A DNA stretch of 64,000 nt, from the NCBI GenBank assembly GCA_016192145.1, contig JACPUT010000005.1, forward strand, positions 1 to 64,000. Direction: 5' to 3'. This DNA comes from Acidobacteriota bacterium. GTDB taxonomy: Bacteria; Acidobacteriota; Holophagae; Holophagales; Holophagaceae. The notes under the pieces are model-generated. The model was not told the origin of the DNA. It ran no database searches and worked only from the letters and a program-made list of their open reading frames with translations. Positions 10,405-19,308 of this stretch are shown piece by piece (within the stretch, counting starts at the first letter, position 1; each line of letters opens with the position of its first letter). Made by a program: the position numbers and the translations under genes.

Positions 10405-11388
10405 TCAGGGAACCGGAATCGCCTCGAGCACCTGCTCCAAGGTGAGTTCCCGCATGCACTGGCGCCGCTGGCAGGCCCGCTCGCGGCAGGGCGAGCAGGC
10501 GATGGCCGTGCGGAGCACCCGGCCCGTGCCCGGGGGCAGGCCCGCGACCACCGGATCCGAGGGACCGAAGAGGGCCGTCACGGGCACGCCCGCCAGTACC
10601 GCGAGGTGCAGCAGCCCCGTGTCGGGCGTGACCACGTGATCCGCCTGGCGCACGGCCGCCGCCAGCTGCCACCAGCCCATGGGCGGCAGGGCGGGCACGC
10701 CGCTCTCGGCGGGCAGCCACTCCCGGAGATCGGCCTCATCAGGGCCCAGGCTCCAGCGCAACTGCCACTTGCCCCGCAGCTCCTTGGCCAGGGCCACCCA
10801 CTCCCGCAGGGGCCAGCGCTTGATGCGCCCCGGCCTCGAAGTGCCCGGCACGAGCACCATCCGCGGCCGGCCATCGGTCCCCCAGGCGGGGCCGCACTCG
10901 GGCAGCGACGCGTCCTTCAGGATGGGCCGGAAGGTGCCGAGCCCCCGCACCCCCCGGCTGCGGCCAAAGGCCTCCGCCAGATCCAGGGCCTGGCGGTAGC
11001 GGCTCTGGTGCTTCCAATCCATCCGATGCGTCTGGAGGTGGTGGGCCAGCTCCTTGGTGACGCCATCGCCCCAGCGCTCTCCGATCCCCGCCCGAGCGGG
11101 GATCAGCGCGGACTTCAGGATGCCGTGGAAGTCCAGGCTCGCGTCCGCCCCCTTCACCTGCGCGGCGATGCGACCCAGCTCACCCCAGGCCCGCAGCGGG
11201 TTGGAGAGGGCCTTGCGCCGCACCAGCACCGGTTCGAACCCCGGGAAGGGGGCCAGCAGGGAGGCGTGCCGATCCTCGACCACGGCCTGGATCAGCGCCT
11301 CCGGGAAGGCCTCGCGAAGATTCATCCAGGCCGGCAATACCCGCAGGATGTCGCCAATGGCGGAAAGACGGAGGAGGGCCAGGTGCAT
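10405..11388 (-). CDS. GT9 heptosyltransferase (WaaC/WaaF-like)
   Basis: This 327-residue glycosyltransferase family 9 protein transfers ADP-heptose-type sugars to the LPS core at the inner face of the membrane. Visible features are the N-terminal LLRLSAIGDILRVLPA, the mid-protein VLVPGTSRPGRIKRWP and the C-terminal nucleotide-sugar motif VVTPDTGLLHLAVLAGVPV ... LFGPSDP. The length is typical. Which heptose position it serves is not readable. It ends 3 bp from the convergent histidine kinase. Its start faces the acyltransferase across a spacer almost filled by a repeat hairpin; TAACCT lies 8 bases before the ATG and no SD is seen. Confidence 0.88.
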   Translation of the reverse strand: MHLALLRLSAIGDILRVLPAWMNLREAFPEALIQAVVEDRHASLLAPFPGFEPVLVRRKALSNPLRAWGELGRIAAQVKGADASLDFHGILKSALIPARAGIGERWGDGVTKELAHHLQTHRMDWKHQSRYRQALDLAEAFGRSRGVRGLGTFRPILKDASLPECGPAWGTDGRPRMVLVPGTSRPGRIKRWPLREWVALAKELRGKWQLRWSLGPDEADLREWLPAESGVPALPPMGWWQLAAAVRQADHVVTPDTGLLHLAVLAGVPVTALFGPSDPVVAGLPPGTGRVLRTAIACSPCRERACQRRQCMRELTLEQVLEAIPVP

Positions 11389-11396
11389 GGGGCTTC

Positions 11397-11402
11397 AGGT
11401 TA
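11397..11402 (-). promoter_or_regulatory. possible leaderless -10 hexamer
   Basis: On the minus strand TAACCT lies eight bases before the ATG of the heptosyltransferase, which lacks an SD. The spacing is two bases longer than in the other cases, so this is a weak call. Any -35 region would fall inside the repeat hairpin. Confidence 0.3.
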
Positions 11403-11405
11403 TCA

Positions 11406-11543
11406 GGCTGGAGACTGGAGGCTGGAGACTGGAGACTGGAGGCTGGGAAGCGCGGCGGCCCTGCGGGCCGCAACCTTTGAGGGTGGCCGGCGCCTTCGGC
11501 GCCGCGCCTTTTCCACCTCCAGTCTCCAGCCTCCAGCCTCTCC
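11406..11543. repeat. tandem-repeat-armed hairpin element A
   Basis: The left arm holds six contiguous 7-nt units (CTGGAGR, positions 11408-11449). The right arm holds four complementary units (YCTCCAG-like, 11516-11543). Between them are two perfect GC hairpins: GCGGCC/GGCCGC at 11455-11471 and GGCGCC/GGCGCC at 11489-11503. Units differ only at the final A/G apart from the end units. The element fills nearly all of the 176-bp spacer between two divergent genes, and it has the same plan as the element at 48431. Confidence 0.85.
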
Positions 11544-11552
11544 TCCCTGCGC

Positions 11553-11558
11553 GATACT
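11553..11558 (+). promoter_or_regulatory. leaderless-type -10 hexamer
   Basis: GATACT lies exactly six bases before the ATG at 11565, which has no SD. It sits just outside the right arm of element A. Confidence 0.35.
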
Positions 11559-11564
11559 GGTGCC

Positions 11565-12395
11565 ATGTCCCACCCCAAGACGCCCTTCGCCGAGGATCAG
11601 AGCAAGAACCCGCCCGCCAAGGGCTTTTTCGAAGTGCTGCTGCGCCGCTTCGCCCGGGGCAGCTACGTGCTGGCCGTGCTGCTGCTCTACCTCGTGGCCT
11701 CCACGGCCCTGGGCGTGGCCCTGGCGCCGGCCCTCTGGGTGTGGGGCAAGACGGCGGCCTTCGGCGCCGGCTGGCCGGGCGCGTGGCCCTGGATCTGGGT
11801 GGGCTTCAGCTCCGCCTGCTGTTTCTTCATTTTCGGGCTCGCCCTCATGTCCGTGGTGCCCGTCTACAACGCCCTCCTCCCCACGCGCTTCGGCCGCTTC
11901 AAGGGCGGCTATTACACGCTGGCCGCAGTGCCCTGGTTCATCCACAACGGCCTCTTCTACCTCGTGCGCTTCACCTTCCTTCCCTTCGCCACCCTCACGC
12001 CCTTCGGAATCTGGTTTCTCAAGGCCATGGGCATGAAGATCGGCCGCCATGCCTTCATCAACACGGAGCTCATCAGCGACCCCCGCCTCATCGAGGTGGG
12101 GGATGACGCCGCCCTGGGGGGGAGCGTACGCATCTTCGCCCACTACGGCGGCGGGGGAAACCTCGTCATCGCCCCCGTGAGAATCGGGAACCGGGCCACC
12201 CTGGGCGCCGGGGCCTGCGTCATGGGGGATGTGGAAGTTGGGGAGGGGGCCGTGGTCCTGCCCCACTCCGTGCTGTTGCCCGGTTCTCGGGTCCCCGCCG
12301 GGGAGACCTGGGGCGGGGTCCCCGCCCGCCGCATCACCCGGGAGGAGATGGATGAGATCAAACTGCATATCAAAGGATTGATGGATATCGGATAA
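11565..12395 (+). CDS. membrane-linked left-handed beta-helix acyltransferase
   Basis: 276 residues. Two N-terminal transmembrane segments (about 33-60 and 80-105) and a further hydrophobic stretch near 128-150 precede a hexapeptide-repeat domain (about 155-250: ALGGSVRIF, VRIGNRATLGAGACVMG, VEVGEGAVVLPHSVLLPGS), which ends in a WGGVPARRI cap. This looks like the transferase half of non-ribosomal peptide synthetase-like or capsule/LPS O-acyltransferases. It probably acetylates a sugar or lipid at the membrane. Divergence from the LPS heptosyltransferase supports an envelope role, but the acceptor is unknown. Confidence 0.72.
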   Translation: MSHPKTPFAEDQSKNPPAKGFFEVLLRRFARGSYVLAVLLLYLVASTALGVALAPALWVWGKTAAFGAGWPGAWPWIWVGFSSACCFFIFGLALMSVVPVYNALLPTRFGRFKGGYYTLAAVPWFIHNGLFYLVRFTFLPFATLTPFGIWFLKAMGMKIGRHAFINTELISDPRLIEVGDDAALGGSVRIFAHYGGGGNLVIAPVRIGNRATLGAGACVMGDVEVGEGAVVLPHSVLLPGSRVPAGETWGGVPARRITREEMDEIKLHIKGLMDIG

Positions 12396-17367: not shown

Positions 17368-19308
17368 TCAAGGGGCAGCTATGGAGACGAGCCCTGCCAG
17401 GAGCTGCTCCGCGAGCGCGGGCAGCGAGGGATCCCGGGCCCCCATGAGCAGCACCAGATCCCCGGTCCGGGCCTCGGCGGCGATGCGGGCGGGCAGGTCC
17501 CCCCGCTCGGCGGCCTGCGCGGCCACCCCATCGGCCTGCAGTTCCGCCACCACCTCCGCCGAAGTCACGGTGCGGTTCACGGTGCCCCCGGAGTAGAACA
17601 CCGGCAAGAACCAGAGGCGATCGCCGGGCCTCAGGGTGGCCTTCAGCACCTGCACCAGCTCCTCCCGCATGAAGGCCAGCGGCCCGAAGCCGTGGGGCTG
17701 GAAGATGGCGAGCACCCGGCCTGCCTGGCTCTGGGCGGCCCGGAGGGCGGCTTCGATCTTGGCGGGGTTGTGGGCGTAGTCGTCCACCACCCGCACGCCG
17801 CGGGCCTCGCCCACAGTCTGGAAACGGCGGCCCACCCCCTGGAAGGCGGCGAGGGGGGCCACGAGGTCGGCGAGGGGAACCCCCAGCAGGCGGCAGGCCC
17901 CCAGGGCCGCGAGGGCATCTTCCACGTTGTGGCGCCCCGGCAGGGGTAGTTCGAAGGCCACGCCCCCCACGGTGAAGTGCGAGCGGCCCGGCTCCAGGCG
18001 CAGGTGCTCGGCGCGCAGGGTGGCGGCAGGGCCGAAGCCCGTGACCGTGCGGCCCTCCCGGTAGGCGGCCAGGTTCTCCGCCTCGCCCAGCACGGACCCT
18101 TCGCGGCACTGGGCGAGGAAGGTGCGGTAGAAGCCCTCCACCACGTCCAGCTCCTTGTGGTCCCGCTGGAGGTTCAGCACCACCCCCACGGCGGGTTCAT
18201 AGCGCACGAGGCTGCCATCGCTTTCGTCGGCTTCGATGACGAGCAGGTCCGACGCCCCCACGTGGGCGTTGCCCCAGCTTCCCTCCGATTGAAGGAGGCG
18301 CAAATCGCCGCCGGTGATGACGGAGGGATCCCGGCCCGCGCCCCGCAGCAGCTCGAAGACCATGGCGGTGGTGGTGCTCTTGCCGCTGGTGCCGCTCACC
18401 GCCACCGTGCGGTGGGCCGCCACCAGGTGGGCGAGCAGCTCCGAGCGGTGCAGCACGGGCACGCCCGCGGCCCGGGCAGCGAGCACATCGGGCACGGTGT
18501 CCTCCACGGCCGTGGAGCACACTACGGCGGCGCAATCCCCCGCCACGGCCGAGCCATCCTGGGGCAGGATGCGGATGCCACAGGCCTCCAGCAGGGCCCG
18601 AGCCTCGGGTCGTTCCCCCCGGTCGAAGCTGCGATCGCTGCCGCTCACGGGGCTGCCCTTCAGCGCGCAGAACTGCGCCAAGGCGCTCATGCCGCTGCCC
18701 GCCACGCCGGCGAAGTGGAGGCGGCCCAGCCCCAGGCCGGCCTCGGCCCCTTCCACCGCGATGAGCACGGCATCGCCTTCCCGCAGGAGCTCCGCCAGGT
18801 CGATCACGGCGGCGTTGCCAAGCCGCACGCAGCCATGGGAGACCGCCGTGCCGAGCCGCGCTTCCTGGTTCGTGCCGTGAAGGTAGATGGTCCGCTCGCG
18901 GCTATCGCAGCCGGGCCCCTGGTTCACGCCGGGCTCCAGGCCCTCCAGGGTGAGCACGCGGGTGAGGATGAGGTCCTCGTCCAAGGCCTCGCCCTTCCAC
19001 ACCTCGCCCGTGGCCTCCCGGCTGCGGAAGATGGCGCCCGGCTCCGAACCGAGTCCGATTCGGGCGTGGATGCGATGCCAGCCCGGCGGGGTGCGGAAGG
19101 AGCCCTCCGTGCCCCCGATCCCGTTCAGTGCCGTGGAGACCGAGGTCTCGAAGGCCAACTCACCCTCCACCAGCAGGGCCAGCCGCTGGCGGGCCACATC
19201 CACCACCACCAGACGGCGAGGTACGGAGCTGAAGGGGCTTCCGGGACGGGAGAGGGCGGCGTAGGCGAGGCTCCGGGTGCGGGCCGCGAGCACGGGATCA
19301 CAAGTCAT
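17368..19308 (-). CDS. fused L,D-transpeptidase (YkuD) and Mur ligase
   Basis: 646 residues in one uninterrupted frame. Residues about 32-188 form a YkuD domain: LVVVDVARQRLALLVEG, RTPPGWHRI, the catalytic His in LHGTNQEA (143-150) and the nucleophile in SHGCVRL (157-163). Residues about 197-640 form a MurC/Mpl-like ligase: LHFAGVAGSGMSALAQ, the P-loop GTSGKSTTT (306-314), VIEADESDGS (357-366) and LPGRHNVEDALAALG. MurC normally reads GTHGKTTT, so the P-loop is slightly atypical. L,D-transpeptidases usually act outside the cytoplasm and Mur ligases inside, and no signal peptide is seen. Whether this is a recycling ligase or the main MurC cannot be decided here. TAGGCT lies six bases before the ATG. 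Confidence 0.88.
   Translation of the reverse strand: MTCDPVLAARTRSLAYAALSRPGSPFSSVPRRLVVVDVARQRLALLVEGELAFETSVSTALNGIGGTEGSFRTPPGWHRIHARIGLGSEPGAIFRSREATGEVWKGEALDEDLILTRVLTLEGLEPGVNQGPGCDSRERTIYLHGTNQEARLGTAVSHGCVRLGNAAVIDLAELLREGDAVLIAVEGAEAGLGLGRLHFAGVAGSGMSALAQFCALKGSPVSGSDRSFDRGERPEARALLEACGIRILPQDGSAVAGDCAAVVCSTAVEDTVPDVLAARAAGVPVLHRSELLAHLVAAHRTVAVSGTSGKSTTTAMVFELLRGAGRDPSVITGGDLRLLQSEGSWGNAHVGASDLLVIEADESDGSLVRYEPAVGVVLNLQRDHKELDVVEGFYRTFLAQCREGSVLGEAENLAAYREGRTVTGFGPAATLRAEHLRLEPGRSHFTVGGVAFELPLPGRHNVEDALAALGACRLLGVPLADLVAPLAAFQGVGRRFQTVGEARGVRVVDDYAHNPAKIEAALRAAQSQAGRVLAIFQPHGFGPLAFMREELVQVLKATLRPGDRLWFLPVFYSGGTVNRTVTSAEVVAELQADGVAAQAAERGDLPARIAAEARTGDLVLLMGARDPSLPALAEQLLAGLVSIAAP

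Follow-up and report, generated by a model that had tools for sequence, protein, structure and literature searches.

Mpl is a demonstrated tripeptide:UDP-MurNAc ligase (PMC8649774, PMC3060825). In the recycling pathway of A. baumannii it acts downstream of ElsL, a YkuD protein of Acinetobacter that has been shown to work as an L,D-carboxypeptidase in the cytosol; loss of Mpl suppresses the combined loss of ElsL and LdtAb (PMC8649774). Without a carboxypeptidase, Mpl loads tetrapeptide onto UDP-MurNAc, generating non-crosslinkable precursors, as known from E. coli and Acinetobacter (PMC13046382; PMC8649774). Bacteria that have neither an LdcA nor an Mpl homolog, Caulobacter among them, are often taken not to recycle their peptides (PMC13046382, PMC11980594). 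The survey of ElsL homologs retained only proteins of 105-200 aa (PMC8649774), so any fusion proteins were left out of it.

Here we describe a gene encoding a YkuD domain joined to a Mur ligase, located in a 64,000-nucleotide stretch of Holophagaceae DNA (the window). From its sequence, the product is probably a cytosolic bifunctional peptidoglycan-recycling enzyme, LdcA/ElsL and Mpl in one, that would trim the tetrapeptide to the tripeptide and ligate it to UDP-MurNAc. No published YkuD/Mpl/Mur ligase fusion was found in an open-access literature search of partial coverage; the fusion architecture and its ligase clade thus appear to be undescribed, and both chemistries are already known.

Architecture of the fusion and its YkuD half

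A fusion of an L,D-transpeptidase-type domain with a Mur ligase had been proposed for this gene, and the analysis bears it out: the 646-aa open reading frame is intact, and the YkuD domain as well as the three Mur domains (Mur_ligase, 197-299; Mur_ligase_M, 304-471; Mur_ligase_C, 494-625) each score above the Pfam gathering cut-off. A linker of ~11 residues separates the two halves, and every motif named in the original prediction is present (Table 1). With three Mur domains, a P-loop, and an EADE(S/Y)D metal site, the protein belongs to the Mur ligase superfamily. An AlphaFold model of the fusion, made with 32 fusion sequences, has a mean pLDDT of 87 and a pTM of 0.84; the identity of the window protein to the 31 other aligned fusions is 54-68%. 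A simple Kyte-Doolittle hydropathy scan showed no signal peptide, as anticipated, and no transmembrane stretch (the highest 19-residue mean was 1.70 for the whole protein and 1.06 within its first 60 residues), and the protein is predicted to be cytosolic. The neighboring genes in the window encode a histidine phosphatase and RuvC, with no visible link to recycling. Elsewhere in the window, ahead of the ORF at 11565 (region 11054-12106), we noticed by eye apparent short tandem repeats, (GACTGGAGACTG)n, which read GDWRLETGDWRLE in ORF translations.

Table 1 Features of the YkuD-Mur ligase fusion gene (window positions).
Feature	Position	Strand	Observations
Whole fusion gene, 646 aa	17368..19308	(-)	Single open frame, ATG start; Pfam YkuD + Mur_ligase + Mur_ligase_M + Mur_ligase_C
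YkuD domain, ElsL type, aa 32-183	18760..19215	(-)	PF03734 E 6.5e-18; ElsL model NF040925 119.6 bits
Catalytic His144 (predicted), within HGT 144-146	18877..18879	(-)	Conserved in 64/64 fused/operonic YkuD domains
SHGCVR motif, aa 157-162, predicted nucleophile Cys160	18823..18840	(-)	Cys160 and Arg162 in 64/64 fused/operonic YkuD domains
Interdomain linker, aa 185-195	18724..18756	(-)	Between Pfam domains; fastest-evolving part
MurC/Mpl-like ligase, aa 197-626	17431..18720	(-)	TIGR01082 285.9 bits (cut-off 335.1); TIGR01081 113.7 bits; third clade in tree
P-loop GTSGKS, aa 306-311	18376..18393	(-)	Ser at MurC/Mpl His position: 41/41 clade, 0/18 MurC, 0/4 Mpl
EADESD metal-binding motif (predicted), aa 359-364	18217..18234	(-)	Invariant across clade
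DDYAHNP, aa 509-515	17764..17784	(-)	MurC H349 position: Asn 41/41 clade, His 18/18 MurC and 4/4 Mpl
QPHGFGP, aa 537-543	17680..17700	(-)	MurC L-Ala Arg pair -> Gly, Pro 41/41 clade; Arg/Arg 18/18 MurC; aligned to HiMurC
MGARDP, aa 622-627, clade-specific Arg-Asp	17428..17445	(-)	Arg 41/41 clade; Gly in all MurC and Mpl rows

The best YkuD-type match of the N-terminal domain is the ElsL model NF040925, a narrow model of the exception type that is matched by all 32 fusions. Because its curated cut-off of 270 bits is missed by the window domain (119.6 bits) and is reached in none of 25 clade genomes, we name the domain ElsL-like and not ElsL. A search of 72,556 plasmid records (E < 1e-5) returned five matches, namely four Acinetobacter records (ElsL) and one Caballeronia protein, and the domain shares 39% identity with A. 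baumannii ElsL over 155 aa (E 2e-29). By sequence, ElsL is the closest characterized relative of this domain; its conversion of tetrapeptide to tripeptide in vitro depends on the equivalent cysteine, Cys138 (PMC8649774). The original prediction held that YkuD and Mur ligase reactions normally occur on opposite sides of the membrane, which is not supported, given the cytosolic ElsL. ElsL is likewise a precedent for the processing of soluble muropeptides by a YkuD domain in the cytosol, an activity that therefore would not be the new chemistry that had been suggested for soluble precursors (PMC8649774). We rejected a periplasmic 3-3 cross-linking enzyme, since the fusion has no signal peptide and the plasmid relatives are ElsL-like only. 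Besides the fusion, the genome has a single YkuD gene (G000:C7:560110-560580; L100:5111-5581), whose 157-aa product carries a TEGCIAV motif and no signal peptide; the genome thus yielded no L,D-transpeptidase predicted to be periplasmic. In six Methyloceanibacter-type fusions (L052, L053, L055, L056, L058, and L059) the SHGC motif reads SCGC or SQGC, with Cys, His144, and Arg invariant.

The ligase clade and its acceptor pocket

We placed the ligase half in a maximum likelihood tree of 64 ligases, built with a quick method using SH-aLRT support and no bootstraps, and containing long branches in Mpl and some MurC rows. Whether fused, operonic, or stand-alone, the members group in a single clade (SH-aLRT 100), separately from Mpl (support 100) and from MurC (support 99). 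The MurC group takes in 17 of 18 chromosomal rows; the remaining MurC row, a long one from Verrucomicrobia, is unplaced. The ligase is thus in a third clade beside MurC and Mpl. Within this third clade, all 19 fused rows of the tree form a single clade (SH-aLRT 99) that spans three phyla, suggesting one fusion event with later horizontal transfer. In Holophagaceae, median dN/dS is 0.17 for the YkuD half and 0.16 for the ligase half; the corresponding Methyloceanibacter values are 0.21 and 0.13, and the linker evolves faster than both domains by the same comparison. Both halves are under similar purifying selection and neither looks decayed.

The murC model TIGR01082, although below its cut-off (Table 1), is the best-scoring NCBIfam ligase model, whereas the score with the mpl model TIGR01081 lies below a cut-off of 388.7 bits. 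A Foldseek search with the ligase gave MurC as the closest structures, including the substrate-bound 1p3d (TM 0.88 by target length), and a TM of 0.68 for Mpl 3hn7. The Mpl hallmark (S/T)AFFDKRSK is absent from the ligase, in which GSLVRY comes straight after EADESD. The missing hallmark and the higher score as MurC than as Mpl count against an Mpl-like role.

The residues around the acceptor differ from those of MurC. In HiMurC, L-Ala is contacted by Tyr346, His348, His376, Arg377, and Arg380 (Das et al., PMC3060825). Across the clade, Arg377 is replaced by Gly and Arg380 by Pro (41/41), Tyr346 is Tyr or Phe, and both His348 and His376 are kept. The clade carries its own signature, consisting of GTSGKS, DD(Y/F)(A/G)HN, QPHG(F/Y)xP, and GARD, and the Arg of GARD sits in the loop that holds the Mpl-specific Ser-Asn-Gly (loop from PMC3060825). 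The departure of GTSGKS from the MurC P-loop, already remarked on in the original prediction, proved to be diagnostic of the clade (Table 1). The loss of the arginines together with these signature motifs indicates an acceptor pocket that is remodeled, neither MurC-like nor Mpl-like, and we infer that the clade ligase takes a tripeptide as acceptor.

Distribution and recycling gene content

A search of the genome collection retrieved ~45 further homologous fusions, in Holophagaceae, Eisenbacteria, and Hyphomicrobiaceae/Methyloceanibacter, so that the architecture search proposed at the outset did find other YkuD-Mur fusions. We sampled 199 genomes across the Acidobacteriota, 18 of them from the family to which the window belongs; the fusion is present in 17 of these, some of them single-contig assemblies, and the genome of the one exception is 1.2 Mb. 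Seven loci from other lineages hold a YkuD gene followed downstream by a distinct ligase gene. The two genes overlap by at most a few codons in six of these loci and are ~660 bases apart in the seventh (L069). The same pair therefore exists both as an operon and as a fusion. As read by eye, five of the six overlapping junctions have a purine-rich, SD-like tract within the last YkuD codons, before the TTG start of the ligase. In L068, L073, L074, L076, and L077, the YkuD stop and ligase start overlap inside a conserved GTTGTC(A/G)TCGTCT with an SD-like tract upstream, a junction sequence which suggests translational coupling from the TTG start.

Clade ligases without YkuD also occur in Elusimicrobiota, Planctomycetota, and Verrucomicrobiota. 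We dropped L065, L061, and L064 as two-gene arrangements because these MAG copies are split, apparently frameshifted fusions. Four more Acidobacteriota matches from another family (E ~1e-86, close to the threshold) were also dropped as stand-alone relatives: the one translated is an ordinary MurC, with QPHRFTRT and apparent ftsQ and ftsA genes beside it (by eye), and the other three score alike.

The second, canonical murC whose presence was to be checked lies in the same genome (G000:C13; 552.8 bits on TIGR01082), and canonical MurC is found in 18 of 20 other clade genomes. The clade paralogue is thus not needed as MurC, and we rejected the fusion as the cell's sole MurC. In two related MAGs, G012 and G013 (the genomes of L068 and L073), the murC model matched the clade ligase only, with no MurC, MurD, MurE, or MurF match; this gap reflects either incomplete bins or a real loss.

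The window's genome encodes AmpG above cut-off and one GH3 NagZ-like protein; profile searches found no S66 LdcA and no Mpl above cut-off. There was also no Amidase_2 (AmpD) match in it despite AmpG and the NagZ-like gene, which counts against a recycling role; another amidase may release the peptide. Among the 20 other clade genomes, 17 have no LdcA and 9 have AmpG above cut-off, all of the latter being fusion-bearing Holophagaceae or Hyphomicrobiales/Alphaproteobacteria; restricted to the sampled fusion-bearing Holophagaceae and Hyphomicrobiales genomes, AmpG reaches the cut-off in 9 of 10. Each of the 15 genomes that carry the pair as a fusion or an operon has a single strong ElsL-type match, located at the ligase locus. 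None of the ten genomes with a stand-alone clade ligase has a strong ElsL-type match, which again counts against recycling, and LdcA is present in two of the five of them that were checked for it.

Proposed function and comparison with known enzymes

Taken together, the ElsL likeness, the linkage at the locus, the lost L-Ala arginines, the third clade, the presence of AmpG, and the absence of LdcA and Mpl favor the recycling reading. The ElsL-type YkuD domain, acting as an L,D-carboxypeptidase, would remove D-Ala4 from the recovered tetrapeptide, either free or on anhydroMurNAc, or possibly from a mis-ligated UDP-MurNAc-tetrapeptide, and the ligase half would then join the tripeptide to UDP-MurNAc, a single polypeptide taking the place of LdcA/ElsL and Mpl. 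Given that Mpl misloads the tetrapeptide where a carboxypeptidase is lacking, tethering one to the ligase would lessen that error, and with trimming coupled to ligation, tetrapeptides, from which non-crosslinkable precursors arise, would stay out of the pool. We observed the architecture, conservation, tree position, residue changes, and co-occurrence; both substrates, the order of the steps, and any channeling are presumed. The original prediction of a recycling enzyme that joins a peptide to UDP-MurNAc is retained as a reading with presumed substrates, although not as new chemistry, Mpl being the precedent (PMC8649774, PMC3060825). The SCGC and SQGC motifs of the six Methyloceanibacter-type sequences count against it. 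A more tentative proposal is a self-proofreading synthetase, i.e. a third class of UDP-MurNAc:peptide ligase that ignores peptide length, with the tethered carboxypeptidase trimming before or after ligation, transfer from site to site, and release of UDP-MurNAc-tripeptide only.

The same lost arginines would fit any altered acceptor, e.g. in an enzyme for precursor editing or remodeling, in which the ligase charges UDP-MurNAc with Gly, L-Ser, a dipeptide, or the like, and the YkuD domain trims soluble precursors at their fourth residue or exchanges that residue, giving an alternative stem peptide. YkuD enzymes are able to exchange D-amino acids, and a PgeF/YfiH gene (PF02578; L074:7833-8552) follows an operonic clade ligase at a distance of 5 nt. 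Members of the PgeF/YfiH family edit UDP-MurNAc precursors at the first residue (PMC8844914). Such a function seems unlikely, as the YkuD domain is closest to a carboxypeptidase, ElsL, the PgeF neighbor was found once, and the presence of AmpG with the absence of LdcA fits recycling better. Still less probable is a second MurC (UDP-MurNAc:L-Ala ligase) fused by chance to a recycling carboxypeptidase: murC is the best NCBIfam model and the top structural matches are MurC, but the score falls under the equivalog cut-off, both L-Ala-contacting arginines are gone in 41 of 41 sequences, the clade is separate, and a canonical MurC accompanies it in the window's genome and in 18 of 20 others.

It is very improbable that either domain has degenerated into a structural passenger, as the SCGC and SQGC variants in some Hyphomicrobiaceae YkuD domains could suggest, since both active sites, taken as complete in the original prediction, are conserved, with the YkuD Cys, catalytic His, and Arg in 64 of 64 domains and the ligase GTSGK and EADESD invariant, and dN/dS is about equal in both halves. 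An assembly or sequencing artefact joining two genes has a negligible likelihood and is excluded: a few MAG copies (L061, L064, and L065) are split, apparently by frameshifts, yet the full-length fusion occurs in independent genomes, some single-contig, comprising 17 of the 18 sampled family members and two further phyla.

This clade suggests that a third class of ligase exists and that one protein can stand in for both LdcA and Mpl, in which case inventories based on LdcA and Mpl may miss real recyclers in several phyla. Automated annotation would probably call such fusions MurC or L,D-transpeptidase, which recognition of the clade corrects. If confirmed, the recycling function would represent a natural means of ensuring that the peptide is trimmed before it is ligated; E. 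coli and Acinetobacter are harmed when that step fails.

The YkuD half resembles ElsL in its HGT and SHGC(V/I)R motifs and in having no signal peptide; ElsL, however, is a stand-alone protein of 167 aa, whereas the domain described here is joined to a ligase. Its predicted reaction is that of LdcA (S66), a serine peptidase of an unrelated family (PMC8649774). The ligase half is closest to MurC by sequence (TIGR01082, 285.9 bits) and by fold (1p3d, TM 0.88), but it has no equivalents of Arg377, Arg380, and His349, its P-loop is GTSGKS versus GTHGKT in MurC, and it coexists with a true MurC. With Mpl (3hn7; PMC3060825) it shares the three-domain Mur organization, UDP-MurNAc and ATP as predicted ligands, a changed C-terminal acceptor pocket, and a predicted tripeptide acceptor; it differs in forming a separate clade, with QPHG-GP and GARDP where Mpl has EPRSNT and SNGG.
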